A stretch of 32,196 nucleotides of DNA, from NCBI GenBank assembly GCA_017650925.1, contig JAGCDY010000087.1:1-32196 (forward strand), in the 5' to 3' direction. The notes under the pieces were generated by a model. The model was not told the DNA's origin. It did no database searches and worked only from the letters and a program-made list of their open reading frames with translations. The DNA comes from a bacterium (GTDB taxonomy: Bacteria; Auribacterota; UBA3054). Positions 755 through 32,196 of this stretch are shown here, one piece after another (the first letter of the stretch is position 1; each line of letters begins with the position of its first letter). Made by a program: the position numbers and the translations under genes.

Positions 755-1566
755 GTCTTGGCCACGGTGAGCAGAATGATGTTTTTAGCGCCCGCGTATT
801 TGAGCTGGCGGGCGCAGAGCTCCGCGGTCGTCCCGGTCGTGCAGACGTCGTCTATGACGGCTGTTATCATGTGTTTGGGCTGATTTCGAAAGTATTTCGC
901 GTACCGTTTGTCGAACTGGAAGGCCCCGAGCAGGTTCCTCATTCTCGCCTCCCTCGAAAGGGAAGCCTGGGGCGACTGATAGCGCGTCCTTTTCAGCGCT
1001 TTTACGACCGGGATCTTCGTCCGCCTGGAAAGCTCGTAGGCAAGGTCCTCGGCTTGGTTGTAGCCCCTGATTAATCTTTTGGCCCAGTGCATGGGAACGG
1101 GAACTAGAGCGTAGATGTAAGGGGAAAGGACGTTGAATTCCGGGTGCGACGTGATAATGTCCGTCAGAGGGTCCGCGAGATAGCGCGCGTTGCCGTATTT
1201 GAATTTCGAGACAAGGTGAGGGGCAAGGCCCGTGTAGGCGGCGCCGGCTATGACGCGGCTCAAGGGCGCGCGCTTGCTCTTAGCTTGGCAGTCCGGGCAG
1301 AGAAGCGTTTCCTCGTCGAGGGAAACATCAATTTTGGAGCAGCCGAGACAGTAGGGCGCTTCGGTAAGAGTAAGAGATTCCCGGCATTTGGGGCAGAGCT
1401 TTTGTCTGCCGCGGCTGTCTAAGGGCGCCTTGCAGTAATAACAGACGGGAGGGAAGAAGAGATGAGCAAGCGCTTCCCACAGCTCCGCGGTGGGAAGCGC
1501 AAGCCTTTCCCTATTCCAGTATCTTGGAAAAAGTTGTGATGTCTTTAGCGCGTCCGGTATTCTCAT
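751..1566 (-). CDS. ComF family phosphoribosyltransferase-like protein
   Basis: A 271-residue ComF/GntX-type protein. Seen: an N-terminal zinc-finger region with four CxxC pairs (C42/C45, C58/C61, C73/C76, C90/C93), then a type I phosphoribosyltransferase domain with RGYNQAEDLA (168-177) and the PRPP-binding loop IDDVCTTGTT (238-247). Family members take part in DNA uptake in competent bacteria (ComFC) but are also widespread where competence is not known, so the role here is open. An upstream in-frame ATG at 1614 would give 287 residues; 1566 is preferred because GAGG precedes it closely and the overlap with the upstream phosphoesterase gene is shorter (56 bases). The start is the uncertain part; even 1566 leaves about 25 residues before typical ComF homology begins. 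No competence genes are visible nearby. Confidence 0.88.
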   Translation of the reverse strand: MRIPDALKTSQLFPRYWNRERLALPTAELWEALAHLFFPPVCYYCKAPLDSRGRQKLCPKCRESLTLTEAPYCLGCSKIDVSLDEETLLCPDCQAKSKRAPLSRVIAGAAYTGLAPHLVSKFKYGNARYLADPLTDIITSHPEFNVLSPYIYALVPVPMHWAKRLIRGYNQAEDLAYELSRRTKIPVVKALKRTRYQSPQASLSREARMRNLLGAFQFDKRYAKYFRNQPKHMITAVIDDVCTTGTTAELCARQLKYAGAKNIILLTVAKT

Positions 1567-2281
1567 CGACCTCAACGACAGCTCCAGAGACCTGGCAGGG
1601 GCCGTCCGCCACATGGAATTTCTGCGGGAGCCCGGTAATGAAATGCTCCAAGACCGGCTCTATTTCCCGCCCGATGACGGATTCCTCGGGACCCACCATG
1701 CCCAGATCCGTTAAGTAAGCGGTCCCATGGTGGAGGATTTTTGCGTCGGAAGTTTGAACGTGCGTGTGAGTGCCCACCAATACAGAGACTTTTCCGTTCA
1801 GGTGGTGGCCCATGGCGATCTTCTCGCTGGTCGCCTCCGCGTGGAAATCGACGATTATGACCTTGGACTTCACCTGTTCCAAGATCCTGTCGACTTCCAC
1901 GAAGGGATTCTGGCTGGGCTGCATGAAGGTCTGGCCCTGCAGATTGATGACCGCGACGTCAACGTTCTTCCACTTCGTCTCCAAAAAGCCTACGCCCACG
2001 TCGGAAGTAATGGCGTTGGCCGGCCTGACGATGCGGTTCAGGCTGAGCATCTCGCGGTAGTCCTTCTGGCGGAAGGCGTGGTCGCCCAAAGTGATGACGT
2101 CCACGCCGCCCGCCAAAAGCTCCTTGGCGATCTCGACCGTAAGGCCGCTGCCTCCGGCGGCGTTCTCCGCGTTGGCCACGCAGAAATCCGCCTCGAAGTG
2201 AGCCTTGGTCTTAGGCAGGTATTTCATGAGGACCGTGCGGCCGCAGCGCCCCACGACGTCCCCGAAGAGCAGTATTCTCAT
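1511..2281 (-). CDS. TIGR00282/YmdB-family metallophosphoesterase
   Basis: A 256-residue calcineurin-like phosphoesterase of the YmdB family; YmdB of Bacillus has 2',3'-cyclic-nucleotide phosphodiesterase activity and affects biofilm and motility decisions. Metal-site motifs seen in order: GDVVG with D8, NAEN with E39/N40, GDH at 66-68, FHAE with H147, and GTHTH with H172/H174. The second motif is usually given as G-N-H; here the codon is GAC, so the position is Asp67. Length matches the family. The ATG overlaps the rny stop codon as ATGA, which implies translational coupling. The rny-ymdB pairing is also conserved in Firmicutes, which supports a shared role in RNA turnover, though the substrate here is unknown. 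Confidence 0.93.
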   Translation of the reverse strand: MRILLFGDVVGRCGRTVLMKYLPKTKAHFEADFCVANAENAAGGSGLTVEIAKELLAGGVDVITLGDHAFRQKDYREMLSLNRIVRPANAITSDVGVGFLETKWKNVDVAVINLQGQTFMQPSQNPFVEVDRILEQVKSKVIIVDFHAEATSEKIAMGHHLNGKVSVLVGTHTHVQTSDAKILHHGTAYLTDLGMVGPEESVIGREIEPVLEHFITGLPQKFHVADGPCQVSGAVVEVDENTGRAKDITTFSKILE

Positions 2282-3852
2282 TTCGCGTACTCGACGACTC
2301 TGGTCTCCCTGACCACGCAGACTTTGATCTGGCCGGGGAACTGGACCTCGTCGGAGACTCTTTTCGCGATGTCCCTGGCGATGACCAGCATCTTGTTATC
2401 ATCGATAGATTCCGCGTCGACGATGACGCGCAGCTCCCTGCCTGCCTGCACGGCGAAGGCGTTCTGGACGCCCTCAATCTCGCCGGCGATCTTTTCCAAT
2501 TGTTCGATGCGTCTGAGGTAAGTGTCGTAAGCCTCGCTGCGGGCGCCCGGGCGGGCCGCGCTGATAGCGTCAGCCGCGCTGCAAAGGACAGCCATGCGGG
2601 ACTTCGCTTCCGTTTCGTTGTGGTGCGCCGCGATCGCGTTGACGACCTTGTCGCACTCCTGGTAGTGGCGGGCGAGCTCCGCGCCGATCGAGGCATGCGG
2701 GCCCTCGACCTCGTGGTCGACGGCCTTGCCGATGTCGTGGAGAAGACCGGCTCTCTTAGCCAAGGTCGGATCCTCTCTCATTTCGGTAGAGAGGGCGCCC
2801 ATGATCTTGGAGACCTCTATGGAGTGCGCCAGCAAATTCTGGCCGTAGCTCGTACGGAATTTCAAACGGCCGACGAGCTTCACCAGTTCGGGGTGCAGTC
2901 CGCTGATGCCGAGGTCCAGGCAGGCCTTCTGGCCGGCTTCCTCGATCTCCTGGTCGATCTCGCTTCTCACCGTATTGAGAACTTCCTCGATGCGGGCCGG
3001 GTGGATGCGGCCGTCCGCGATAAGGCGTTCCAAGGTGCGCTTGGCAATTTCCCTTCTGACCGGGTCGAAGCCGGAGATGACTACCGCGTTCGGCGTGTCG
3101 TCGATCAGTATCTCAACGCCTGTCTCCTGCTCGAGGGCCCTGATGTTGCGGCCCTCGCGGCCTATTATGCGGCCCTTGAGGTCATCGCTGGGAAGAGAAA
3201 CGGAAGCGACCGTGTTCTCCGCGACATATTCGGAGGCGCAGCGCTGGATAGCTCTGGCGATGATGTCGCAGGCGACGGAATGGGCCTGCTCCTCGGCTTC
3301 CTGCTGGCGGCGGCGGATAAGGTTAGCGGCGTCGTACTCGACCTCGCGCTCAAGCTTTTCCCTTAAGCTCTTTACGGCTTCTTCGCGGGAGAGTCCGGCC
3401 ACTCTCTCGAGGGCGGCCTCCTCTTCCTGGATCAGTTTTTCTATCTTCTCTTTGGAGACTTCGAGCTGCTTGCGTTCGCCGGCCAGTTTTTCGCGATCGC
3501 TTTCCAGAGCCTGCTCTTTCTGCTCTATCTGGTCGGCACGCTTGTCGCAGGCGGCCTTCTTCTGCTCGATCCTCTCCTCTTCTTTCTTCAGTTCACGCCT
3601 GGTGTCCTTGGTGCTGTTCTCGAAATCCTGGCGCATCTTATGCTCTTTGTCTTTCAGCTCGAGATCGCTTTCCCTTTTGATCTGGTGCGCTTCTCTTTTT
3701 GCCTTGTCGATCAGCCTTCTGGCCTCGTCTTTCACTTTGTTTTCCCTTGAGCGCTCTTTCGCTTTATGAACGGCGCTTAAGATGATCGCTCCCAAAATGA
3801 AGCCAACGACCGCGGCGGCCGCGATAAGAATGATCGCAGTTGTCTGTTCCAT
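2278..3852 (-). CDS. rny: Ribonuclease Y (membrane-anchored endoribonuclease)
   Basis: RNase Y starts decay of many mRNAs from the inner membrane. The 524-residue protein has the complete family layout: an N-terminal membrane helix (about 6-28), a long charged coiled coil (about 30-190), a KH domain with GRIIGREGRNIR (227-238), and an HD domain with H343, the HD pair at H372-D373 and following conserved histidines (H380, H386, H410/H411). The start is supported by AGGA about eight bases upstream. Its stop overlaps the phosphoesterase start (ATGA) and its start lies 10 bases after the cyclo-ligase stop, so it is within an operon. RNase Y as the main decay enzyme is usual for Firmicutes and several other phyla, including parts of the PVC group. 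Firm assignment. Confidence 0.97.
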   Translation of the reverse strand: MEQTTAIILIAAAAVVGFILGAIILSAVHKAKERSRENKVKDEARRLIDKAKREAHQIKRESDLELKDKEHKMRQDFENSTKDTRRELKKEEERIEQKKAACDKRADQIEQKEQALESDREKLAGERKQLEVSKEKIEKLIQEEEAALERVAGLSREEAVKSLREKLEREVEYDAANLIRRRQQEAEEQAHSVACDIIARAIQRCASEYVAENTVASVSLPSDDLKGRIIGREGRNIRALEQETGVEILIDDTPNAVVISGFDPVRREIAKRTLERLIADGRIHPARIEEVLNTVRSEIDQEIEEAGQKACLDLGISGLHPELVKLVGRLKFRTSYGQNLLAHSIEVSKIMGALSTEMREDPTLAKRAGLLHDIGKAVDHEVEGPHASIGAELARHYQECDKVVNAIAAHHNETEAKSRMAVLCSAADAISAARPGARSEAYDTYLRRIEQLEKIAGEIEGVQNAFAVQAGRELRVIVDAESIDDNKMLVIARDIAKRVSDEVQFPGQIKVCVVRETRVVEYAK

Positions 3853-3862
3853 ATCTATGTCC

Positions 3863-4477
3863 TTATATATGTTGATTAATATAGATCTCCCCTGGCGAGA
3901 TAACTTTGTCCAGGGAGGCGTCCCACTCTTCTGTGGGAATCCTGTCCGCTATTTGGCAACTAAACGCCACGCCGGCTATCGTATCCCCGGCGCGCTGAAA
4001 AGCGCGGAGCCTTTCCAGCGTTCTGTCGTAATAGCCCCCGCCTTGACCCAGCCTGCGACACCCCCGGTCGAAGGCTACGCCGGGCAGAAGCCAGAGCGTA
4101 TCGGAACATTCTTTCATAGGGTCCCAGAGAGGCAGATCCTCTTTGGGCTCCCTTATCCCGAAGGAACCAATGGCGAAGTATTCTTCGGTAAGTCCCTTCA
4201 CTTCCCTGAAAATAAGATCTTTCCCTTTGACGACCGGAAGCACGAGCTTCTTTCCGTCAGCGAGAACTTTCTCATTCAATTCCGTCAGATCCAGTTCAGA
4301 GCCCAGCGCCATGTACGAAACGATGACGCCAGACTTCTGATATTCCTGGCTTTCAATGATCCTGCCGAAAACTTGGCGCGTTTCAGAGCTTCTTCTTTCC
4401 TTTGTCAGCGCTTTCCTCTCTGCGCGCATTCTCGCGCGCAGCTCTTCTTTGAGAGCGCCAGTTGGACAATCTTTCAT
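3863..4477 (-). CDS. fau: 5-formyltetrahydrofolate cyclo-ligase (MTHFS / YgfA family)
   Basis: Converts 5-formyltetrahydrofolate to 5,10-methenyltetrahydrofolate with ATP, returning the storage or inhibitory folate to one-carbon metabolism. Seen in 204 residues: an N-terminal basic helix (8-30), SFGIREP (105-111), PGVAFD (132-137) and the nucleotide loop RLGQGGGYYDR (142-152). The open frame extends to an ATG at 4585, but 4477 is chosen: a GAGAG ribosome-binding site sits 6-7 bases upstream and the protein then begins just before the conserved basic helix. Even so the gene overlaps the end of rarA by 95 bases, a long overlap. In Enterobacteria this gene follows the 6S RNA gene; here 6S RNA, rarA and this gene are consecutive, so the linkage is preserved with rarA in between. 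Confidence 0.92.
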   Translation of the reverse strand: MKDCPTGALKEELRARMRAERKALTKERRSSETRQVFGRIIESQEYQKSGVIVSYMALGSELDLTELNEKVLADGKKLVLPVVKGKDLIFREVKGLTEEYFAIGSFGIREPKEDLPLWDPMKECSDTLWLLPGVAFDRGCRRLGQGGGYYDRTLERLRAFQRAGDTIAGVAFSCQIADRIPTEEWDASLDKVISPGEIYINQHI

Positions 4478-5810
4478 TGATTCTCTCTTCCGCGCCGAAG
4501 CGTGTCGGCTTGTAATATAGTTTTTCAAGGGGCATATATTCCTGAGCGGCGGAAAAATGTCCCTCGGCGTTGTGGCTGTATTCATAGCCCTTGCCGTGGC
4601 CCAGTTCCTCGGCGCCCTTGTAATGGGCGTCCTTGAGATGGTCCGGCACTTCCATTGTTATGTTCTCGGCCACGTCCTTCCAGGCCGCCTCGAGCCCCAT
4701 GTAAGCCGCGTTGGATTTCGGACAGCAGGCAAGGTAGGTAACAACGTGGCCCAAATTGATCCTCACTTCCGGCATGCCGATCCTTTCCGCCGCCTGATAG
4801 GCCGCCATGGCCAGAGGCAGGGCAAGATAGTCGGCGCAGCCAATGTCCTCGCTCGCGAAGATGACCATCCTGCGCGCGATGAAGCGCGGGTCCTCGCCGG
4901 CCTGGAGCATCTTGGCGAGCCAGTAGAGCGCGGCGTCGGGATCGGAACCGCGCATGGATTTTATGAAAGCGGAAATAGTGTCGTAATGGCCGTCGCCGTC
5001 CCGGTCGTAAAGCAGGACTTTCTTCTGCAGGGAGGCTTCCGCGTCCTTGATCGTGACGTTGATCCTTCCCTTTTCGTCGGGTTTTGTCGTGGTGGCCGCG
5101 AGTTCCAGGGCGTTCAGCGCGACCCTGGCGTCGCCTTCGCAGCGCTGGGCTAAGAATGAGAGCGCGTCTGGCTCGACCGTAAGGTCCATCTTCCCCAGTC
5201 CCCTTTCCTCGTCCTTCAAGGCTCTTTCAAGCACGGCCAGAATGTCGTCCTTTTCGAGCGGCTTGAACTGGAAGATCCTCGAACGGGAAAGCAGCGCGTT
5301 ATTCAAAGCGAAATAAGGATTCTCGGTCGTCGCGCCGATAAGGATCAAAGTCCCGTTCTCAACATGCGGCAATAAAACATCCTGTTGCGCCTTATTGAAA
5401 CGGTGGATCTCGTCGAGGAACAAAACGGCGCCCAAACGCCCGGCTTTTCTCCTTGAGCGCGAGAAATCGACGACGTCCCTGACGTCCTTTACGCTCGAAG
5501 CGACGGCTGACAGGCGGCAGAAAGGCCGCTTCGTCGTCAGAGCGATAACTTCCGCCAGAGTAGTCTTGCCGCAGCCCGGAGGTCCGAAGAAGATGGCGGA
5601 GGAGAGCTTGTCGGCAAGGATCGCGCGCTGCAAAAGCGAGCCTTCGTAGATAAGATGCTTCTGTCCGGCGATCTCGCTAAGATCGCGGGGGCGCATGCGG
5701 AAGGCTAAGGGAGCGTTGGCGGCATCGGCGTTCTCAAATTGATTGAGCGCGGGATCGCCGGGGATATCTCTTTGTTCCGAGAAGGAAAAAAGTTCAGGTT
5801 CGTCAGTCAT
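4383..5810 (-). CDS. rarA: Replication-associated recombination protein A (RarA/MgsA), AAA+ ATPase
   Basis: A 475-residue clamp-loader-like AAA+ protein that acts at stalled replication forks and gaps and interacts with SSB in known family members. Seen: Walker A GPPGCGKT (76-83), Walker B LFLDEIHRF (130-138), sensor-1 GATTENP (159-165), and LLSRSR with the putative arginine finger (173-178), followed by the lid and the C-terminal tetramerisation region. The basic C-terminal tail (about 450-475) overlaps the cyclo-ligase gene. No Shine-Dalgarno is evident before ATG 5810. The start codon is about 40 bases after the predicted 3' end of 6S RNA, with no obvious promoter between, so it is probably transcribed together with that RNA. 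Confidence 0.96.
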   Translation of the reverse strand: MTDEPELFSFSEQRDIPGDPALNQFENADAANAPLAFRMRPRDLSEIAGQKHLIYEGSLLQRAILADKLSSAIFFGPPGCGKTTLAEVIALTTKRPFCRLSAVASSVKDVRDVVDFSRSRRKAGRLGAVLFLDEIHRFNKAQQDVLLPHVENGTLILIGATTENPYFALNNALLSRSRIFQFKPLEKDDILAVLERALKDEERGLGKMDLTVEPDALSFLAQRCEGDARVALNALELAATTTKPDEKGRINVTIKDAEASLQKKVLLYDRDGDGHYDTISAFIKSMRGSDPDAALYWLAKMLQAGEDPRFIARRMVIFASEDIGCADYLALPLAMAAYQAAERIGMPEVRINLGHVVTYLACCPKSNAAYMGLEAAWKDVAENITMEVPDHLKDAHYKGAEELGHGKGYEYSHNAEGHFSAAQEYMPLEKLYYKPTRFGAEERINERLSNWRSQRRAARENARREESADKGKKKL

Positions 5811-5849
5811 TAGATCTATGTTGGGACTGACCGGAATGAGCTGAAAAAT

Positions 5850-6031
5850 GGGGCCCTGCTGGTGCCGTAGATACTTAATGGTCTAAACTCAGAATCCTAA
5901 AAATAAGGCTTGCAAGATTTTAAGGCTTCCCGCTCGAAGACGGGCCTGCACAACCACCTTGTACTCGCCCCTTTACATTAGCGAATGTCAGTTCAGGCTC
6001 TTTTTGGTATGTTAGCGAACACCGCAGGGTA
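5850..6031 (-). ncRNA. ssrS: 6S RNA (regulator of sigma-70 RNA polymerase)
   Basis: The 314-base gap before rarA contains a 6S RNA candidate. On the minus strand the arm CCCTGCGGTG (6029-6020) pairs with CACCAGCAGGG (5864-5854) with one bulged base, giving the long closing stem; the arms are about 176 bases apart, the normal 6S size. Inside lie an asymmetric bubble (GTTCGCTAAC side), an apical stem GCCTG/CAGGC (5998-5994 with 5948-5944), a small hairpin (5988-5975), a CCCG/CGGG hairpin (5944-5929), and GAAGCCTTAAAA (5929-5918), which matches the conserved segment of E. coli 6S RNA. The 3' end is followed by a T-run (5848-5844). 6S RNA mimics an open promoter and binds the housekeeping holoenzyme. 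Downstream are rarA and the YgfA-type cyclo-ligase, a known 6S neighbour. Exact ends are estimates. Confidence 0.87.
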
Positions 6032-6080
6032 AAACTCATTTCAAATTTCCAATTTCAATTCCATTCCGGCCCGGGGGCCA

Positions 6081-6142
6081 TATATATTCAAACTCTTTAC
6101 GAGACTGCAAACATTATAGCAAATTTAATTCAAGATAGCCAA
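6081..6142 (-). promoter_or_regulatory. Candidate promoters upstream of 6S RNA
   Basis: Two sigma-70-like matches read toward the 6S RNA gene: TTGGCT (6142-6137)-18-TATAAT (6118-6113), which begins inside the end of the upstream phosphatase gene, and TTGCAG (6110-6105)-18-TATATA (6086-6081). Either would start transcription about 45-75 bases before the mature 5' end, giving a precursor to be trimmed. No better match is seen directly at the expected 5' end, where the sequence is TTGAAATTGG-rich but lacks a clear -10. The rest of 6032-6080 holds only a GC palindrome (6068-6079). Confidence 0.35.
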
Positions 6143-6886
6143 CGCCAGCTTGTGGAGAGTGGGAGGACCGGCAAGACAAGAGGAAGCCCCTACCGGATCC
6201 TGGCCTTCCCAGCCCGTGATGACGCCGCCCGCGCCCCTGATGACAGGGATGAGCGGCAGGATGTCCCAGGGGTTCATCTCCGCGTCGGACATGACCGCGC
6301 AAAGCCCGCCCGCGATGAGAGCGTAGCCGTAGCAGTCGCCCCACATCCGGAAGATCTTGCCTTCTTCGATAAGAGCGTCGAATTTAGGCCGGCTTTTCAG
6401 TCTGGCTATGTCGCATATGTCCGTGGTCAGGATAACGGCCTCCTTGAGGCTCAGAGCGTCTTTAACGTGCACCGGGGTGCCGTTCACCTCCGTTACCGTA
6501 TTGTCGCCCAAGTAAACCTCGTCACGCATCGGAAGCCCTATGGCGCCGAGGATCGGCTTGCCGTCCTTTAGGAGCGCGATCAGCGTGCCGAACAAGGGAG
6601 AGCCGGAGACGAAGGACTTCGTGCCGTCGATGGGGTCTAATACCCAGGTGTACTCGGCGCTTCCGCCCGCTCCGAACTCCTCGCCCAGGATAGCGTGGCT
6701 GGGGAAATTCTTGGCGATCATTTCCCTCAGCATCATCTCGGCCTTGCGGTCTATTTCCGTCACAGGGCTTAGGTCCTTTTTCACTTCCACGTGGTAGGCG
6801 CGGGAATTGAAGGCGTCCCTGATGAAGGGCATCACGACCTTCAGCATAGCCTTCGTGAAATCTTTGTATTGGTCCAGCTCGGTCAT
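6125..6886 (-). CDS. Inositol monophosphatase family protein, likely HisN-type histidinol-phosphatase
   Basis: A 253-residue Mg-dependent phosphatase of the IMPase fold. Seen: the GEE metal ligands (68-70), DPIDGT (84-89), and the C-terminal site WGDCYGYALIAGG (182-194) with NPWD (205-208). The FVSGSPLFGTLIAL stretch (92-105) and the W-G-D-C-Y-G-Y motif are those of the branch containing histidinol-phosphatase HisN of Actinobacteria and plants rather than of SuhB or CysQ, so histidinol phosphate is the best-guess substrate; inositol or another sugar phosphate cannot be excluded. No other his gene is present. The ATG overlaps the aminopeptidase stop as ATGA, so it is translationally coupled. 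It is the last gene before the 6S RNA gap. Confidence 0.88.
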   Translation of the reverse strand: MTELDQYKDFTKAMLKVVMPFIRDAFNSRAYHVEVKKDLSPVTEIDRKAEMMLREMIAKNFPSHAILGEEFGAGGSAEYTWVLDPIDGTKSFVSGSPLFGTLIALLKDGKPILGAIGLPMRDEVYLGDNTVTEVNGTPVHVKDALSLKEAVILTTDICDIARLKSRPKFDALIEEGKIFRMWGDCYGYALIAGGLCAVMSDAEMNPWDILPLIPVIRGAGGVITGWEGQDPVGASSCLAGPPTLHKLALAILN

Positions 6887-11677: not shown

Positions 11678-12507
11678 TTCTCCTCTTCCGGTTCGGGTGA
11701 CAGGGAAAGATTAGGCGGCGCGTGCTTGATGACCGTCACGGTCTCCATGGAACGCATGTCAGCCGCCAGCTGCACTTCCGCGCGCTGGTAGAAATTGCGT
11801 TCGTCTCTCTCGACTCTGATCACTGATCCTATGTGGTAGCCGGCCGGGAAAACGCTGCCCGTGCCGGAAGTGTAGACTTCGTCGCCGATATTAATTTTGG
11901 CGTCCAGCGGCAGGAAATTGATCCTGGCCAAACCTTCGCCGCGACCTTCAAGAATACCGGCCGCTTCCGAAGGCCGCAAAAGCACGCCGACTTTAAAGGT
12001 GGGGTCGTTGATCAGAAGGACTTTGGAATTCAGGAAACCGGCTTCCACTATCTTGCCGATCAGCACGCCGCCCCTGACGACCGGCATGCTCGGCAAGAGC
12101 CCGTCGCGGCGCCCTCTGGAAATGATTATCGTCTTGCTCCAGCTGAACTCGTCGCGGAAGACGACGGGCGCCGGCAAAAGCTCGAAATCGTAATCGCGCT
12201 GAAGGTTCAGCATCTGCTCGAGCTCGTGCACTCTGGCCTGAAGGTCCCTGGTCTGGTCGTACTTTCTCTGCAGCGCTTCCAACTGCAGCTTCAGCGCGTT
12301 GTTCTCCCTCAGGACCGCGCTCCTAAATTGGTAGAGGTTCCAGAAGTAATTCAGCTTCTGCCCGGGATAGTTGACGATCCTGACGAAAAATCCGGAAACG
12401 TCCAGCGTCAGACTGCGGGAAAAACTTCCAAGCCAGCCGACCCTGGCGCAGAAAATAATCACCAGGGCGGCGATGAAAAGTATCAGGATGTTCCTTTTTC
12501 TAAACAT
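11674..12507 (-). CDS. mreC: Rod shape-determining protein MreC
   Basis: A 277-residue bitopic membrane protein: a membrane helix (about 7-22), a periplasmic coiled coil (about 60-102), then the paired beta-barrel domain with GRRDGLLPSMPVV (132-144), INDPTFKVGVLL (166-177) and GDEVYTSG (208-215) followed by FPAGYHIG (220-227), all typical of MreC. It forms the periplasmic scaffold that activates PBP2. The ATG lies eight bases inside the end of the upstream CotH gene and AAGGAGG is upstream, so translation of mreC is likely coupled to that secreted protein. mreB, the normal gene upstream of mreC, is absent here. Confidence 0.94.
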   Translation of the reverse strand: MFRKRNILILFIAALVIIFCARVGWLGSFSRSLTLDVSGFFVRIVNYPGQKLNYFWNLYQFRSAVLRENNALKLQLEALQRKYDQTRDLQARVHELEQMLNLQRDYDFELLPAPVVFRDEFSWSKTIIISRGRRDGLLPSMPVVRGGVLIGKIVEAGFLNSKVLLINDPTFKVGVLLRPSEAAGILEGRGEGLARINFLPLDAKINIGDEVYTSGTGSVFPAGYHIGSVIRVERDERNFYQRAEVQLAADMRSMETVTVIKHAPPNLSLSPEPEEEK

Positions 12508-15502
12508 TCAAAATCCTCCTTTTTCCCAGAAGGAAAAGTAAGATCAAAATTCCAATCGCCGGTTCGGGCGCTTCCTCAACCGTAAAGTCCGCTTCGCCCC
12601 GCATGGGGAGATCTATTTCGCCCCTGGCGTAGCAGCAGCGGAAGGTCATAGAATTGGTCAATACTATCGGAACGTCCGCGTAAATTTTCGCCGTCTGGGA
12701 ATCCCAGGGATCGCTGCCGTCCAGGGTGTAGACGATCTTTTTCGCGCCGGTGAGCGTTAATTCCGTTCCGCAGTCCACCGTTCCTCCGCAGACGGAAAGG
12801 ATGGGCGGATCGATCTCAGGGAACCAGCCCGCGGCGCGGAACTGCTCGAGGTTCAAAGCGTGGCGGTGGGGCAGGAATTTGTCCCTCAGATAGTCGATGT
12901 TGGGCTGCCAGTCGCGGTCTCTCCTCAAGGGAAGCCTGTCACCGTAAGGCGCCCTGATGTCGCCCCAGCGCGCCGATTCGCAGACTATGGCGTCGTAAAT
13001 AGAGTCCGCCCGCCGCATGAAGAGTGATTGCAGTTTTTCCGGAACGACGGCTCCGCCGTTGAAGTAGCGCTTGCAGACTCTGTCGATGAAAAGCTCACGG
13101 TAAGGGGCGCACTTCATCAGCTCCTGGTGGAGGAAGGTATAGTTGAAATGCTTGAACTCCTCGCCAACTGTCGTCTTCAAGGTCAGGTTCGTGTTGTAAT
13201 AGGCGCGCACCAAAGAATGCTCGTTGTCGTGACAAATGAACTTGAAACCTTTAGGATCGACTTTGTTGTAAAGGGCGTAGAAGTTGTTCACCCTGTGCCC
13301 GGTGACCGCCACGGGACAGTCCATGTTGCAGACGATGTTGTTCAAAATGGCGTTGTCAGCCACGTTGGTGGGATCCAACAGTCCCGTTTCAACGGCGTTT
13401 TTGTAGCTCGCGCTGTCGAAACCGTTGGTGGTCATTTTATAGAGCCGTCGGAAAGCCTTGGTGTCTCCGTTGACCGCCGAGATGACGAAATTGTCGACCT
13501 TGACGACATCGTAATCTTCTTTGTCCCCGCCAAGGTAAGAGGCGGCAAAGTGTTCCTCCGGCCTTTCCTCGGTCTGGTAAAGGCCCCAGTAGTGGCCGTT
13601 CAGAAGCAGATGATAGCTGCGGCTCCTGGTGGCGTGTAATCCCAATGACAAAGCCAGGTCCCTGACGAAGGCGTCCCGGCAGTATATGGCCTGGTAGGCG
13701 TCGTTCTCAAAATTCCAGGAATAATTCTGGGCGCACCTCAGGTCGACTCTTCGGAAACTGTCCGCGCCTTCGTCCTCAAAAAGAGGGAATTTAAGTTTGC
13801 CGTCGTATTCATCCCTGAAAAAGAGCCTAAATCCGTGCTTGGGATTCTTGGCTGCCCTGCTGGCGGCGCCCCTGATCCTCAATCCGCAGTTAATAGAGAA
13901 GCCTTCCTTTCCGTCATGATTCAAGAGCTCTATGTGAGCGGGGCGTTCCCAAAGTTCGCCGTCAGATCTCGCGTTGACATAGATGCCGGTGCTGGCGCTG
14001 AAAAGATTCCCGGGGCTCGTAATAACGGAAATAAAGGGCAGCTGCTTCATGCCGGGTCTCATCGCGTCCTTGTAAGTATCGCTTTGGGTTATCCTAGTAT
14101 CCATCCCGTAATCCATTCTCTGATTGTTTACGGAATTGGTGGGCCATAGATCGCCCGGAGGAACGCCGTCGGGAGCATTGATAACATCGTCCAAAAACAC
14201 GTAGGTGCCGACAAATTCCACCGCGCCGCCCGCGTTGTCTTTGAAGGCCTTGGCCCTTACGATGGTGGTCTTGTCGATCATAAAACGGCCTCTGTAAACG
14301 GTACCGTGGTTTTCAGACGGGACTGTTCCGTCCAGCGTGTATCTTATTTTCGCGTCCGAAAGATCGCACAAAAGCCTAAGTTCAAAGGGCTCCTCGTAAA
14401 AACCCGGCTCCTCGCTTGGAGCTACTTTGCCAATGACCTCATCGAAACTGTCTCTGTTCGGAAATCCCGGGGAAGCGGGCTGCATGTAGCGCAGCGTTTC
14501 GTTGGTGAAGGATACGGGCGCTCCGCCCGTCAGCTTCGGGCTTATCAGAAATTCCTCGTCGTTCTTGTCGGCAATGGTGCCAACTATGGCCAGAACATTC
14601 GTTCCCGTATGCAGGAGCGTGCGGTATTTCGTGACGTCGAAGTCAGTCCAAACGACGGCGGCCTTTTTCTCGCGGTTGGAAACCGCGTAGGCTTCCGCTC
14701 CGGAACCGGACATCCTCTCTTCCCTGGTTACGGGAACGCCGTTCAGGTACGCCTCGAAGGAATCGCAGTAAAGCAGGCTCATTGACAGGGTGTAAAAGGC
14801 GGGCGCGTCAGCAAGGACAAAAGGATAGCGAATGAAGGCCGCGCGCCTTTTTTTATACATCGCTTCCTTTATGTTCACCTTGAAATGCTTGCTGAAATCG
14901 TACTCGCCGCCCTTGTTGCATTCGAAGCCCACGCCTCCGTTGCCCTTGAGGAAAGTGGAGTCGTCGTAACCCGGAAGATACCAGACATTATCCAGCGCCC
15001 CATTGCCGGGGACGCAGACCCTGCAAGGATTTTTTTCTTTCAGCAGCGCGACATCCTGCGTTCCCGCCTCCCCGCACCAGCCAAAGGAAACGTCGGGGTA
15101 TTGCGGCGGAAAAGTCGGGTAAAATTCCGAAACGACCTTGCCGCCCGGCTTAGCGAGACCAAGATACTCCCCTTCCGCGGAAAGCTTGAAACCGGTGTGC
15201 AGTTCTTTGCCGGGAACACTCTGGGCGACGTCGGAGGCGAAGACCAGAAGATAGCCGCGGGCCGTCAGGTTGGTGGCCGGGAAGGTCCATTTGAAAGGCT
15301 TCTTGGCGCTGTCGCTGAGGCCGTAGCCCTCGAGGTCGATATCCTCGTCGCTGTCGTTGTAGATCTCGATCCAGTCGGAGCACTCGCCGAAACAATCCTT
15401 CAGCCCCGACTTGTTGGAGGCCAGGAACTCGTTGATGCGCAAAGCTTCCGCCGCGCAGGCGGAAAGAAGCGCGATAAAAATTATGACAAGGGACCGGGCC
15501 AA
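12500..15502 (-). CDS. Secreted CotH-kinase-like protein with lamin-tail-like domain and PEP-CTERM-like tail (1000 aa)
   Basis: Layout: Sec signal peptide (about 1-20); lamin-tail-like domain beginning LRINEFLASN (21-130); a jelly-roll-like insert (170-330); a chitobiase C-terminal/Fn3-like module with RYTLDG (387-392); a CotH kinase-like domain (about 490-830) with LRIRGAASR (541-549), LLLNGHYWGLYQ (632-643) and ICHDNEH (756-762); a second YTLDGSDPW module (925-933); and a C-terminal APEPA motif (978-982), hydrophobic stretch and basic KRR. CotH of Bacillus is a protein kinase of spore-coat proteins; activity here is unproven. The tail predicts processing by an exosortase, none of which is seen. 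The start is TTG at 15502, two bases after the stop of the paralogous gene, and the stop overlaps mreC. Paralogue of the upstream 1168-residue protein. Domain naming is firm, function is not. Confidence 0.85.
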   Translation of the reverse strand: MARSLVIIFIALLSACAAEALRINEFLASNKSGLKDCFGECSDWIEIYNDSDEDIDLEGYGLSDSAKKPFKWTFPATNLTARGYLLVFASDVAQSVPGKELHTGFKLSAEGEYLGLAKPGGKVVSEFYPTFPPQYPDVSFGWCGEAGTQDVALLKEKNPCRVCVPGNGALDNVWYLPGYDDSTFLKGNGGVGFECNKGGEYDFSKHFKVNIKEAMYKKRRAAFIRYPFVLADAPAFYTLSMSLLYCDSFEAYLNGVPVTREERMSGSGAEAYAVSNREKKAAVVWTDFDVTKYRTLLHTGTNVLAIVGTIADKNDEEFLISPKLTGGAPVSFTNETLRYMQPASPGFPNRDSFDEVIGKVAPSEEPGFYEEPFELRLLCDLSDAKIRYTLDGTVPSENHGTVYRGRFMIDKTTIVRAKAFKDNAGGAVEFVGTYVFLDDVINAPDGVPPGDLWPTNSVNNQRMDYGMDTRITQSDTYKDAMRPGMKQLPFISVITSPGNLFSASTGIYVNARSDGELWERPAHIELLNHDGKEGFSINCGLRIRGAASRAAKNPKHGFRLFFRDEYDGKLKFPLFEDEGADSFRRVDLRCAQNYSWNFENDAYQAIYCRDAFVRDLALSLGLHATRSRSYHLLLNGHYWGLYQTEERPEEHFAASYLGGDKEDYDVVKVDNFVISAVNGDTKAFRRLYKMTTNGFDSASYKNAVETGLLDPTNVADNAILNNIVCNMDCPVAVTGHRVNNFYALYNKVDPKGFKFICHDNEHSLVRAYYNTNLTLKTTVGEEFKHFNYTFLHQELMKCAPYRELFIDRVCKRYFNGGAVVPEKLQSLFMRRADSIYDAIVCESARWGDIRAPYGDRLPLRRDRDWQPNIDYLRDKFLPHRHALNLEQFRAAGWFPEIDPPILSVCGGTVDCGTELTLTGAKKIVYTLDGSDPWDSQTAKIYADVPIVLTNSMTFRCCYARGEIDLPMRGEADFTVEEAPEPAIGILILLFLLGKRRILNV

Positions 15503-15504
15503 GC

Positions 15505-18500
15505 TTACTTCAACCTTCGCGCGAAAAGAAGAGCGAACATGGCCGCGGCCAGACAGGCGGGCTCAGGCAGGTCTTCCCTGCCGGGAGAGCCGTAAGGTTC
15601 GCCGGAGAGGCGCCAGGCGCCCTTGATGCTGTAACCTTCCAATGGCGTCTCGTAGCTGACCGGCACGATGGAGGGGCCGTAGCCGCGGGCGCCGTCGTAC
15701 CAATAGCCGTCGAAACTGAAATTGTAATTGGTCAAAAACAGCGCTTCGCCGTCGTTAGAGAGACTGCCGTCGTAGGCGCCGGCGATGTAGAGGTCGTTGG
15801 TCTCGTAGCGTTCCGCGAAAGCCTCCAGATTCTTGACGACAAGAACGTAGCCCTGCTCCGGCACAGCCTTGGAGCCCTGCGCGAAAACGAATTCCACGCC
15901 GCCGGTTATGGACTGGCCCTCGGGATAGAAGGGCTTGTTGGAATTGTTGAAGAGCTCGATGAACTCGAAATCCTTTTCCGTGAAGCGGGAACCCTCCTCG
16001 GGAGGCGCCGGCATGTACATGAGCTCGCTGACGATCAGAGGGCTCTTCTCGGAGAGCGTGAAGTAAGCGGAGACGTCCAGAGGCGCGTCGCTGTAGGCGG
16101 GATCGTAGCAGCAGCGGATGTAGGTGGGCTGCGTGATGGAAAGGGGGCCCGTGTAGCGCTTGGCCGTGGAGGAAGTGTAGGGGTCGCTGCCGTCAGTCGT
16201 GTACTTGATGAAGGTCTGGCCGTTCAGGGTGACCCTCGTTCCGGGGGCCACGCGTCCGCCCATGGGGATCATCCTGGGAGGCGCCATGCTGGGATACCAG
16301 CCGCGGTTCCTGAACTGCTCGAGGTTCTTCGTGTTCCTGGTCGCGAAGAAGGTGTTGGTGATCCACTGGATCTCCGGCCACCAGTAATCGTCCCTGTTGA
16401 GGGGCTGGTAAGAACGGCAGTCGGTCCTGACGTCGCCCCAGCGGGCGGATTCGCCAAGGATGGCCTTGTCGATCTCGTGGACGCGGGAAAGGAGCAGCCT
16501 GGAAGCCTTGGGGGCGGTCATAAGGCCGTCGTTGAAATAATGCAGACTGACGCGGGACTGGAAGACGCGCTTGTAGGCGTCCACAGCGCAGAGGCGCTGG
16601 TGCAGGTAGCGGGGGTTGAAGGCGCCCGTGCCGTCGCGGCCGGTCGTGATGTTGCCGGTCTTGTCGGTGTTGAGGTACATCTTCACCATGGCGTGCTCGG
16701 TGTCGTGGCAGAAATACTTGAAGCCGCCCTGGCGTACGCGGTCGTATATGGCGAAGAAGTTGTTGGGGCCGCTGTCCGTCATGGTCAGAGGACCGTCGGT
16801 GTTGCCCAGGAAGTTGTTGATGATGGTGTAGTCCGCCAAATTCGTGGGATCCAGGAGGACAGGGAACCTCGGGTTCCTGGTGCCATCCGGGTTGCGGCCC
16901 ACGGCCTTCAGGTAAGTCTCTTCCGTAAATCCGTCTCTAGCCATCTGCCAAAGCGACTTCCAGCCGTCAATGTTGCCGCTGTTGACGACCGCCACGTAGC
17001 CGTCGGGCTTGATGACGTCGTAGTCGTCCTTGTCGCCGCCGAAATAAGTCTCGGCGAAATGCTCCTCGGCCCTTTCCTGGAACTGGTAGAGGCCCCAGTA
17101 GTGGCCGTTCAGGAGAATGTGGACGTAGCGGCTCCTGGTGTAAGGTTCGCCCATCTCGCGCTGCATGTCGCGGGCGAAGACGTCGCGGCACATGATGTTT
17201 TCCCTGGCGTCGTTGCCGCCTTCGCAGCTCCAGGAGTAGTTCTGGGCGGTCCTGATGTCCATCTTGTCGAATTCAAGAGCGCCTTCGGAACCGAAGAGCG
17301 GATACTCCAGTTTGGAGTTGCCGTATTCGCCGCGGAAGAAGAGACGCCAGGAGTGCTTGGCGTTGCCGGAACTTCTGCTGGCGCCGCCCCTGATCCTGAG
17401 ACCGCAGCCTACGTTGAAGCCAGCGCTGCCGTCGTGGGTGAGATACATCAATTGGGCGTAGCGCTCCCAGTTGCGGCCGTCCTGCCAGGCGTTGACGTAG
17501 ATGCCCGTCCTGGAGTCGAAGAGGTTGCCGGGGCTCGTCACGATGGAGAGCATGGGGATCTGCTCGAAGGCCGCCTTCATTTCTCCGCCGTAGCGATCGG
17601 ACTGCGTGATGCGGGTGTCCATGCCGTAGTCGAAGCGCTGGTTGTTTATGGAGCCGCTCGGCCACTTGGGGCCGGGGCGGGCGCCGCTGGGCGCGCTGAT
17701 GACGTCGTCTAGGAAGACGAAGGTCCTGGCGGAGGGCCTGGGGCTGTAAGCGCCTTCCTTGAAAGCGCCCGCCCTGATGACGGTGGTCTCGTAAATGTTA
17801 AGGGGACCGCTGTAGACCATTCCGTTGCTGGCCGTGGGCTCGGTGGCGTCCAAGGTGTAGCGGATGGTAACGCCCTCGTCCGGGGAGGTGATGGTCAGCT
17901 GGAAAGAATCCTCATAGAAGCCGGAGTCCTTGCTGAAGATCAGGGGCTGCAGAAATTCCTCGTAGGCTTCCCCGTTGACCGCGCCGGGAGTCGGGCGGGT
18001 GAAATAGCCGCGCTCGGTGAAGACCATGCTGTCCACGCCCTTGGCCCTCAGCTCCGCTTCCATAAGGAAGTCCGTGCTGGTGGTGGTGTCGTTGAGGCCG
18101 TGCACGCACAAAACGTTGTTGCCCTTGCGCAGAAGGTTGATGTAGGTGGAAATGTCCACGTCCTCGAAGACGAGAATGTTGCTCTCGTTGTGGTAGGTGG
18201 GCGAGCAGGAATCCCAGCTGACGGTGGCGGGGGCGTTGACTCTCGCCACTTCCACGCCGTTAAGGTAGACGACGAAGCCGTCGTCGTAGAGCATCCTGAG
18301 AACGAGCTTCTGAAGGTTGGGCTTCTCTTCCAGGGTAAACGGCATGCGGATGTAGACGGTGCCGTTCTTGTCGTACATCTCGCTCTCCACGTTTATGCCC
18401 ATGCAGGGAATGACGGAGGTGGAGCTGGAGGGATTCTTCTCGTAGCCTACGCCGGAAGTGCCGGAACTCCAGGCGGAGTCGTCGAAGGTGGACCTGTACC

Positions 18501-19011
18501 AGATGCCGTCAAGGTCGCCGTTAGTCGGAACGAGATAGCGGCAGAAGGAATTGGTGGACCTTAAGATCACTTCCTCGGTGGTCACTATGCAGCCGTCGCC
18601 GTAACTGACGTCCTCGTACTGCACGGGGAAAGTCGGCGCGTATTCGGAGACCACCTGACCCGCCGGGTTATAAAGGCCTAAGTATTCGCCGCTGGCGGAA
18701 AGCTTGAAGCCGGTGTGCATCTCCTCGCCCGGTTCGGAGATCTCCCTATCGGAGCACCAGACGAGCATGTACGTTCCGGCCACGAAGTTGGTGGCGGGGA
18801 AATCCCATTTGTGGGGCTTCTTTTCGTTGTCCGTCAGACCCCAGCCTTCCAGGGAGAAGGTGTCGCCGTCGTTGTAGAGCTCCACCCAGTCAGAGCTGTC
18901 GCCGAAGGAGTCCCTGATGGTCCCCTTGTTGGAAGCCATGAATTCCGTGATGCGGACGGCCTGAAGCGAAAGGGCCGCCGAAAGCGTCAAAAGAAAAAGC
19001 GTTCGTTTCAT
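15505..19011 (-). CDS. Secreted CotH-kinase-like protein with two lamin-tail-like domains and PEP-CTERM-like tail (1168 aa)
   Basis: The same order as its downstream paralogue: signal peptide (about 1-18), lamin-tail-like domain from VRITEFMASN (19-130), jelly-roll-like insert (165-325), chitobiase C-terminal/Fn3-like module with RYTLDATEP (384-392), CotH kinase-like domain (about 485-850) with LRIRGGASR (538-546), ILLNGHYWGLYQ (632-643) and FCHDTEH (767-773), and a second module with YTTDGSDP (937-944). It then has an extra second lamin-tail-like domain (about 990-1110, from LIVSELMYMP), and ends LPEPA (1148-1152), a hydrophobic stretch and ARRLK. The added domain explains most of the length difference. 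The start has only a weak AGG nine bases upstream and lies 12 bases after the DUF945-like gene. Lamin-tail domains may bind glycans or DNA; the ligand is unknown. A tandem duplication is the simplest origin of the pair. Confidence 0.85.
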   Translation of the reverse strand: MKRTLFLLTLSAALSLQAVRITEFMASNKGTIRDSFGDSSDWVELYNDGDTFSLEGWGLTDNEKKPHKWDFPATNFVAGTYMLVWCSDREISEPGEEMHTGFKLSASGEYLGLYNPAGQVVSEYAPTFPVQYEDVSYGDGCIVTTEEVILRSTNSFCRYLVPTNGDLDGIWYRSTFDDSAWSSGTSGVGYEKNPSSSTSVIPCMGINVESEMYDKNGTVYIRMPFTLEEKPNLQKLVLRMLYDDGFVVYLNGVEVARVNAPATVSWDSCSPTYHNESNILVFEDVDISTYINLLRKGNNVLCVHGLNDTTTSTDFLMEAELRAKGVDSMVFTERGYFTRPTPGAVNGEAYEEFLQPLIFSKDSGFYEDSFQLTITSPDEGVTIRYTLDATEPTASNGMVYSGPLNIYETTVIRAGAFKEGAYSPRPSARTFVFLDDVISAPSGARPGPKWPSGSINNQRFDYGMDTRITQSDRYGGEMKAAFEQIPMLSIVTSPGNLFDSRTGIYVNAWQDGRNWERYAQLMYLTHDGSAGFNVGCGLRIRGGASRSSGNAKHSWRLFFRGEYGNSKLEYPLFGSEGALEFDKMDIRTAQNYSWSCEGGNDARENIMCRDVFARDMQREMGEPYTRSRYVHILLNGHYWGLYQFQERAEEHFAETYFGGDKDDYDVIKPDGYVAVVNSGNIDGWKSLWQMARDGFTEETYLKAVGRNPDGTRNPRFPVLLDPTNLADYTIINNFLGNTDGPLTMTDSGPNNFFAIYDRVRQGGFKYFCHDTEHAMVKMYLNTDKTGNITTGRDGTGAFNPRYLHQRLCAVDAYKRVFQSRVSLHYFNDGLMTAPKASRLLLSRVHEIDKAILGESARWGDVRTDCRSYQPLNRDDYWWPEIQWITNTFFATRNTKNLEQFRNRGWYPSMAPPRMIPMGGRVAPGTRVTLNGQTFIKYTTDGSDPYTSSTAKRYTGPLSITQPTYIRCCYDPAYSDAPLDVSAYFTLSEKSPLIVSELMYMPAPPEEGSRFTEKDFEFIELFNNSNKPFYPEGQSITGGVEFVFAQGSKAVPEQGYVLVVKNLEAFAERYETNDLYIAGAYDGSLSNDGEALFLTNYNFSFDGYWYDGARGYGPSIVPVSYETPLEGYSIKGAWRLSGEPYGSPGREDLPEPACLAAAMFALLFARRLK

Positions 19012-30083: not shown

Positions 30084-32196
30084 TTACTTCCTGCGGAGGA
30101 AAGCCGCCAGCGCAAGCAGGGCCAAACCGAAGATAGCCGGTTCAGGAGTCGGGGCAATGGTAGAGCCAGAGCTGCTAACGCTGCCGGCGTAGGTCTTGCC
30201 GTTGTTGCCAGTGATAGTGTAATCGCCTTCCGGCAGGTAGAAGTAGAGGTCGTAGGTGTCGGAGTGGCCCTCGCCCTCGTAGCCGTAAGTCAGCGAATCC
30301 GCCTTGCGGGTGGCCGTGAAGGAGATGTCGCCGTCGCCAACGCCGTAAATGGAGTTGACCGTGGGAGCGGTGGCGTCAGTCAGCGTCGCCACGTAGATAA
30401 CTTCGCCGTTCGAAGCGTTCTTGGGAGATGGACCGTCGCCCGCTCCAGCGCCCTGGCCGATGGGAGAGCCGCTGCTAGAGGAGGCTTTAACGGAGCCGCC
30501 GGAGATGTAGATGGCGGGAACCGTTCCGCTCTCGCCGCCGGCGTTGCCGGCGCCGATGCCGGCGCCGCTGCCGGCGGAGGCTTCGATCGTGCCGCCCGTG
30601 ATGGTTATCGTACCGGGAGCAATGTGGCCGCCTTCGTCGCCGCAGCCGATGCCGGCGCCGTTGCCACCAACCGCTTTCACGTAGCCGCCGTTGATGGTGA
30701 CCGTGCCGGTGCCGCCTTCCCAGCCGGTTCCGCCGCCGATGCCCGCACCAAGCCAGCCGGCGGTGGCCGTGACGGAACCGCCGTTGATGGTCACGTTGGC
30801 TTTGGCATGCTCACCGCCGCCGATGCCGGACGCATAAGTCGCGCCGTTGGCGGTGATGGTTCCGTCGTTGATCACGATGGCGCCGGAAGTTTCCCAGGAA
30901 TTGCCACCGAGGCCGGCGGCCGCGCCGCCCTGGCTGGTGGCGGTAAGCGAGCCTGTGCCGCTGATGGTGACAGACGCGCCGCTAGCTACGCGCAGGCCGG
31001 CGGCCGCGGTAGAAGTCAGAATGTTGTTGCCGGACAGAACCAGATTCACGTTGCCGCTCTGGATGTTGAAAGCGCAGCTGACGCCGGTTATGGAAGCGCC
31101 GTCCAAGGTAACGGTCGGATTATCGGAAGAATTGACGGTGACCGAGCATTCCGTGGTCGTGCCGTCGATCACGTAGTTGCCGTAAAGGCCGACGACTCTG
31201 CCGCCTTGGGTGGCGCCAGTCTCGGTCTCGATGGTTATGTCGCCGTCTCCAGCATGCAAATAAACTATGCCGGGAATGTAGCGGGTCAAAGTGCCGGGCC
31301 CGTCCTCGATGGTGCCGGAGAAATTCCTGCCGTTTGTGCCGCTGACCGTGTATTCGCCGTTGGGGAGATAGAAGTAAAGATCCGAATCGGAAACGTGACC
31401 GGGGCCGGTGTAGGAATAAGTGTAGGCAAGCTCGTCTTTGGTCGTGGTGAAGGTGTAAGTATTGCCCTGCGTGCTGAACGCCGAGGCTACCGTCGCCTTA
31501 TAAACCGGGTCTCCGCCAACGCCTGTCTTAGGCGGGGTGTTGGGCCCCTGGCCGGCGCCTTGACCGATAGGGGAACCGCTGTTAGACGAAGCTTTGATGG
31601 AGCCGCCGGAGATGTAGATGTCCGGGACGGTTCCGCTCTCGCCGCTGGCATTGCCGGCGCCGATGCCCGCGCCGCTGCCGGCGGAGGCTTCGATCGTGCC
31701 GCCAGTAATGGTGATGGTGCCCGGAGCAATGTGACCGCCTTCGTCGCCGCAGCCGATGCCGGCGACGTTGCCGCCCGTCGCTTTCACGTAGCCGCCGTTG
31801 ATGGTGATGGTGCCCGCGCCGCCTTCCCAGCCGGTGCCGCCGCCGATGCCGGCCGCGTAGCCGCCGGCGTTGGCCGTGATGTCGCCGCCGTTGATGGTGA
31901 CGTTAGCAACGGCGTGTCCGCCGCCGCCGATGCCGGACGCGAAAGCCGCGCCGTTGGCCGTGATAGTTCCGTCGTTGATCACAACGGCGCCGGAAGCTTC
32001 CCGGGATTTGCTGCCGATGCCGGCGCCTTCTCCGCCCTGGCTGGTGGCGTCAAGCGAGCCTATTCCTTCGATAGTCACGGAAGCGCCGGAGGCAACGTGC
32101 AGGCCGGCAGATTCCGTGGAGACCAGCGTGCTGGTGCCGCGCAAGTCTAAAGTCACGTCGCCGCTCTGGATGTCGCAAGCGCAGCTGACGCCGGAA
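30084..32196 (-). CDS. Repetitive PEP-CTERM-like surface protein, N-terminal part outside window
   Basis: 703 residues are visible; the frame stays open to the right edge and the residues before the first possible start (GTG at 32156) continue the repeat, so the gene is partial. It consists of about two units of some 369 residues, each rich in Gly, Thr, Ser and Ala, with short strands such as GTITITGGTIEASAGSGAGIG-like turns repeated every 20-30 residues, which suggests a right-handed beta-helix or similar solenoid. Each unit ends in a smaller beta domain with LYFYLPxGxYT. The C-terminus is TPEPA, a hydrophobic helix and RRK, a PEP-CTERM-like signal for exosortase processing. Relatives of this texture are annotated as carbohydrate-binding-domain proteins in gut bacteria, but no ligand can be inferred. 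Confidence 0.85.
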   Translation of the reverse strand, partial: SGVSCACDIQSGDVTLDLRGTSTLVSTESAGLHVASGASVTIEGIGSLDATSQGGEGAGIGSKSREASGAVVINDGTITANGAAFASGIGGGGHAVANVTINGGDITANAGGYAAGIGGGTGWEGGAGTITINGGYVKATGGNVAGIGCGDEGGHIAPGTITITGGTIEASAGSGAGIGAGNASGESGTVPDIYISGGSIKASSNSGSPIGQGAGQGPNTPPKTGVGGDPVYKATVASAFSTQGNTYTFTTTKDELAYTYSYTGPGHVSDSDLYFYLPNGEYTVSGTNGRNFSGTIEDGPGTLTRYIPGIVYLHAGDGDITIETETGATQGGRVVGLYGNYVIDGTTTECSVTVNSSDNPTVTLDGASITGVSCAFNIQSGNVNLVLSGNNILTSTAAAGLRVASGASVTISGTGSLTATSQGGAAAGLGGNSWETSGAIVINDGTITANGATYASGIGGGEHAKANVTINGGSVTATAGWLGAGIGGGTGWEGGTGTVTINGGYVKAVGGNGAGIGCGDEGGHIAPGTITITGGTIEASAGSGAGIGAGNAGGESGTVPAIYISGGSVKASSSSGSPIGQGAGAGDGPSPKNASNGEVIYVATLTDATAPTVNSIYGVGDGDISFTATRKADSLTYGYEGEGHSDTYDLYFYLPEGDYTITGNNGKTYAGSVSSSGSTIAPTPEPAIFGLALLALAAFLRRK
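30180..32196 (-). repeat. Tandem coding repeat of 1107 bp (one full and one partial copy)
   Basis: Corresponding positions are exactly 1107 bases apart in two places checked (30484 and 31591; 31071 and 32178), that is 369 codons. At the 3' end of the unit the offset becomes 1131 because the C-terminal copy has an insertion of about eight codons near 30310-30370. The DNA is strikingly alike between copies, including synonymous positions, so duplication is recent or maintained by gene conversion. The second copy is truncated by the window edge; more copies may follow. Confidence 0.85.

Follow-up and report, generated by a model that had tools for sequence, protein, structure and literature searches.

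6S RNA, a familiar bacterial RNA, switches off RNA polymerase when cells are at rest, and the sequence on the 3′ side of its bubble varies among the known examples. The mechanism of the family combines promoter mimicry with a product RNA (PMC8876501). The genomic neighborhoods of 6S genes have also been described. In particular, 6S lies next to ygfA in several proteobacterial classes (alpha- and gamma-proteobacteria among them) and in some Firmicutes (PMC9130861), has rarA as a neighbor in lactic acid bacteria and Bacillus subtilis (PMC8414754), and lies within a zapA-6S-ygfA arrangement in beta- and gamma-proteobacteria (PMC7641849). In E. coli, 6S RNA is cut from longer transcripts that are able to run into ygfA (PMC7641849 and references therein). 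Published work on other phyla already covers the links 6S-ygfA, 6S-rarA and zapA-6S-ygfA, and the RNA described here adds a new member to an established family. A literature search, conducted without the main 6S survey (Wehner 2014), found no published description of the combined array in the phyla considered here.

The locus lies in the window, the whole stretch of 32,196 nt of an Auribacterota contig that was analyzed, in a genus whose named members come from ruminant guts. The first-pass annotation, made from the sequence alone, had proposed a 6S RNA gene in the gap at 5850-6031 and had named the Rfam 6S model on the minus strand as its check. The check was run and bears the proposal out: RF00013 matches 5849-6033 on the minus strand over its full length (model positions 1-187) with 58.9 bits against a gathering cut-off of 46.4 (E = 2e-9 in the window with Rfam 15; E = 3e-11 when the whole genome is searched). 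The match is the sole RNA at gathering thresholds in the whole window (Rfam 15), the gap between the flanking inositol-monophosphatase-family gene and rarA holds no open reading frame of at least 80 aa, and one 6S copy was found in the draft genome (1.98 Mb, 89.7% complete). Together with the covariation described below, this match identifies the core of about 185 nt (5849-6033, minus strand) as a genuine 6S RNA gene, an ssrS homologue that is ordinary in kind, and firmly places 6S RNA in an uncultured lineage.

The closing stem carries the strongest structural signal. Its 5′ arm, CCCUGCGGUGUUCGC, occupies 6015-6029 and its 3′ arm, ACGGCACCAGCAGGGC, occupies 5853-5868 on the minus strand, as located by the Rfam alignment and by covariation; the pairing CCCUGCGGUGUUCG / CGGCACCAGCAGGG, read earlier with its arms about 176 nt apart, is present as stated. 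Across 36 sequences, the stem has 13 pairs with 97% of cells paired, and 7 of the 13 pairs show double changes. None of 500 shuffles reaches the observed covariation score, and every slid control collapses. The window sequence forms 39 of the 50 projected Rfam pairs. RNAalifold recovers the closing stem alone from the 36-sequence alignment, because the bubble and the apical arm align poorly. In contrast to these comparative results, the single sequence on its own folds with no greater stability than its shuffles (z = -0.07, not significant); folding energy was therefore dropped as evidence for 6S, and the structural hallmarks listed in the first-pass annotation would not by themselves have been proof.

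The remaining parts of the rod are also in place. The asymmetric bubble read from the sequence agrees with the Rfam structure, in which each side of the rod carries the central bubble where it is expected, between the closing and apical arms. The motif GAAGCCTTAAAA, noted for its likeness to E. coli 6S RNA, is found at 5929-5918 and fits the Rfam consensus GAAgCcuaAA; on the 3′ side of the apical arm it reads GAAGCCUUAAAA (5918-5929, minus strand), and GAAGCCUUAAA is conserved in 8/8 genus members. The predicted template for the product RNA spans 5987-6000 on the minus strand, covering the 5′ side of the bubble and the start of the downstream helix; from its position and its likeness to the B. 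subtilis type, the product RNA would be 5′-GUCAGUUCAGGCUC. A nearly invariant CCAACA/CUGACA block also points to this template. On the 3′ side of the bubble, a CACCCAC block that is present in most other relatives is absent in 8/8 genus members, so the bubble is divergent in the window's genus; this is taken as divergence rather than exclusion, because 6S sequence varies in that part. At about 5890-5911 in the window, the genus carries CUUAUU(U/C)(U/C)UAG where most relatives carry CACCCAC.

A decayed 6S pseudogene would account for a score of 58.9 bits that is lower than in most of the order (up to 80.8 bits). However, the core is nearly unchanged in 8/8 genus members while the sequence downstream of it diverges, and the pairs of the closing stem are maintained, which makes decay extremely improbable.

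Downstream of the core, the genes form a rarA-ygfA-rny-ymdB array (1511-5810), all on one strand. The start codon of rarA (also mgsA), encoding a replication-associated recombination ATPase (4383-5810, minus strand; Pfam MgsA_C and AAA_assoc_2), is an ATG at 5810, 39 nt past the end of 6S. It is followed on the same strand by a ygfA-type 5-formyltetrahydrofolate cyclo-ligase gene (3863-4585; Pfam 5-FTHF_cyc-lig), which starts some 1.26 kb beyond 6S, on the far side of rarA, by rny, encoding RNase Y (2278-3852; Pfam RNase_Y_N, KH_1 and HD), and by a ymdB-like gene (1511-2281; Pfam YmdB). Directly upstream of 6S is an inositol-monophosphatase-family gene (6125-6886, minus strand; Pfam Inositol_P) with its stop at 6125. 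Elsewhere in the window, two large, adjacent and related open reading frames of 1000 and 1168 aa (12500-19011) have N-termini that look lamin-tail-like by eye, and a 690-aa open reading frame (30084-32156) has internal glycine-rich repeats and a PEP-CTERM-like tail (PEPAIFGLALLALAAFLRRK).

The RNA and its neighborhood recur among relatives. RF00013 is positive in 36 of 59 sampled relatives, including 7/7 genus members besides the window's genome and 6/7 other members of the order. In the sole order miss (G013), the best RarA match starts at contig base 1 and holds only the end of RarA, so the stretch ahead of rarA falls outside the assembly. A model built in this analysis (R1) recovers 6 more of the 14 negatives in the order and phylum, 5 of them weakly. 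In a tree of RarA sequences, the window's order does not group convincingly with any named phylum. Three genomes of the same phylum (G017, G024 and G031) have two 6S-like matches each, the second away from rarA. Within the window's order, 6S-rarA-rny occurs in every family, and most of these families, like the window, have ygfA intervening between rarA and rny; no ygfA was detected in one family of the order (f3). Across the phylum, most families with a 6S gene show 6S-rarA-ygfA-rny-ymdB on a single strand. Many of these families have a ZapA-family gene upstream of 6S (Pfam PF05164 in the 5 scanned), often preceded by a gene judged by its sequence to be pheT-like, and the commonest order is zapA-6S-rarA-ygfA-rny-ymdB. 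In the window's genus, inositol-monophosphatase-family and leucyl-aminopeptidase-like genes stand in the zapA position instead, and no ZapA was detected in the window's genome. Four families (f10, f11, f14 and f17) keep rarA-ygfA-rny with no 6S detectable there. The rarA-ygfA-rny array also persists in other families and phyla even without a detectable upstream 6S.

The first-pass annotation described the locus as a 6S-ygfA linkage with rarA inserted. The presence of rarA between the two is real; the implied direction of change does not follow. The 6S-rarA-ygfA arrangement is usual in the window's phylum, in Omnitrophota and in some Verrucomicrobiota, and an array with 6S-ygfA but no rarA is seen in one of the phylum's families (f13, G027; zapA-6S-ygfA-rny) and, as 6S-ygfA-rny, in two genomes outside the phylum (G048 and G057). 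Insertion and loss of rarA are both possible.

The linkage with rarA is wider than had been supposed. Among 75 loci gathered by RarA similarity alone, and not by 6S, 48 have a 6S on the same strand upstream of rarA (E < 1e-4), and in 45 of those 48 it touches the RarA match or is separated from it by no more than 500 nt. By phylum, an upstream 6S occurs in 24/26 Omnitrophota loci and in 19/38 Verrucomicrobiota loci; Rfam itself passes 12 of the 15 rarA-selected 6S loci tested. The 6S-rarA link is therefore a feature of several phyla, and the neighborhood containing 6S is conserved across several that are little studied. Overall, 6S stands ahead of rarA across Omnitrophota and parts of Verrucomicrobiota and Kiritimatiellota, often followed by ygfA-rny-ymdB, and this arrangement provides a positional rule for locating divergent 6S genes.

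These gene orders bear on how the RNA is transcribed. A T-run following 6S had been listed among its hallmarks; it is present at 5848-5844, but it is not a conserved terminator, because it is missing in same-genus species (G001 and G005-G007) and no intrinsic terminator was called at its site. Nor was any terminator called in the 6S-rarA interval. On the 5′ side there is a promoter-like site, TTGGCT-18-TATAAT with an extended -10 TG (6113-6142, minus strand), where 1 was found versus 0.5 expected in shuffles; its -10 box is conserved in the genus. Transcription from this site would start near 6106 and give the RNA a leader about 70 nt long. In a different family (f5), a promoter-like -10 was read by eye directly before the core. 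A hairpin masking the rarA start codon (GTCAGTC/GACTGAC), seen by eye in some members, was rejected as a candidate element: it is broken in G002 and absent in G005-G007.

The short distance of 39 nt to rarA, the lack of a called terminator between them, and the loss of CACCCAC in the genus would also fit an element that works mainly in cis, as the leader of the rarA operon, having kept a 6S-like fold and lost its action in trans on RNA polymerase. Against this, the fold covaries like that of working 6S RNAs, and no other 6S copy was found in the window's genome. Moreover, the same RNA stands ahead of ygfA rather than rarA in f13 and in the two genomes from outside the phylum, so it has no fixed downstream partner. 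A mainly cis-acting leader is thus very unlikely. The locus is, with high confidence, best explained as a whole as the 6S RNA gene of an uncultured bacterium, from its promoter to polymerase block, product RNA and read-through. Beyond the observed sequence, structure, covariation, gene order and outer-helix conservation, its expected behavior is drawn from the 6S family, including polymerase binding, product RNA, growth-phase control, co-transcription and trimming. Transcription would proceed leftward from the promoter near 6113-6142, probably yielding a longer transcript able to read on into rarA-ygfA-rny-ymdB. The RNA would fold as a rod whose central bubble mimics an open promoter; in stationary phase it should bind and block the housekeeping (sigma-70-type) form of the RNA polymerase holoenzyme, and it would be released once a short product RNA has been synthesized by the polymerase on the bubble.

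The sequences flanking the core can also pair with each other, outside the canonical closing stem. This probable outer helix has a 5′ arm, GGCCGGAAUGG-AA-UUGAAA, at 6053-6071, and a 3′ arm, UUUCAG-C-UCAUUCCGGUC, at 5829-5846, between 6S and the rarA start codon (both minus strand). With the promoter-like box some 70 nt ahead of the core, the outer 5′ arm is expected to be part of the primary transcript. Versus shuffles, flank pairing has a negative z in 14/14 order members, with a mean of -2.55, compared to -0.27 in the rest of the phylum and -0.25 at named loci of other phyla (Mann-Whitney p = 2e-6 for the order versus elsewhere, the 14 order members being related sequences). Six sequence groups have different helix sequences, and of the 720 possible ways to match the groups' arms, the one that joins each to its own partner comes out best; the helix survives a complete change of sequence between families, and it is weak or absent outside the order. 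Chance or compositional pairing of the flanks, without selection, would agree with the modest pairing of the window itself (z of about -1.5 to -1.8 versus shuffles) and with a few unrelated loci that also reach a z below -2.5. The contrast between the order and all other loci, and the own-partner matching of the six groups, make chance pairing an unlikely explanation. The outer helix is therefore probably a selected structure in the window's order; it is held as probable rather than proven because the 14 sequences are related and the window's own z is modest.

In rRNA, leader-trailer helices are cut by RNase III, and an outer helix by itself likewise suggests RNase III. However, RNase III was undetected in 8/8 genus genomes (G000-G007, 83-93% complete) by two models (TIGR02191 and PF14622), whereas it is present in 4 other order members and in 4/4 other phylum members tested. 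The enzyme has apparently been lost in the window's genus; it is therefore unlikely to process the outer helix there, and that route was rejected. RNase E/G is present in the window's genome and RNase Y is encoded in the array itself. The 6S ends may accordingly be trimmed by RNase E/G or RNase Y together with exonucleases, or the long form may be the one used; pairing of the flanks in the order would either lengthen the rod or define the ends for trimming. We tentatively propose, at somewhat less than even confidence, that the order's 6S is a longer variant, a functional form or precursor with about 17 further pairs that form an outer helix outside the canonical closing stem; compensatory changes between families would preserve this helix, which persists even in a genus without RNase III, so that the 6S ends would be made by another route. 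If true, the outer helix is a modest new variant of 6S RNA, and together with the missing RNase III it raises a testable question of how 6S ends form.

Compared to known systems, the RNA resembles E. coli ssrS (RF00013) in its full-length model match, its rod with a central bubble, the GAAGCCUUAAAA motif in its apical arm and a ygfA gene in the downstream array; unlike E. coli ssrS, it has rarA between 6S and ygfA, no upstream zapA, and an outer helix around the core. The outer pairing on both sides of a stable RNA recalls the processing helices of rRNA leaders and trailers, from which it differs in that RNase III is undetected in the window's genus. The other families of the phylum, with zapA-6S-rarA-ygfA and in one case zapA-6S-ygfA, parallel the zapA-ssrS-ygfA arrangement of beta- and gamma-proteobacteria (PMC7641849), whereas the array here additionally contains rarA, rny and ymdB. 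Further, the RNA is linked to rarA like the 6S of lactic acid bacteria and the 6S-1 (bsrA) of B. subtilis (PMC8414754), but in reversed order: in lactic acid bacteria rarA is upstream of 6S, whereas in the window 6S is upstream of rarA on the same strand.
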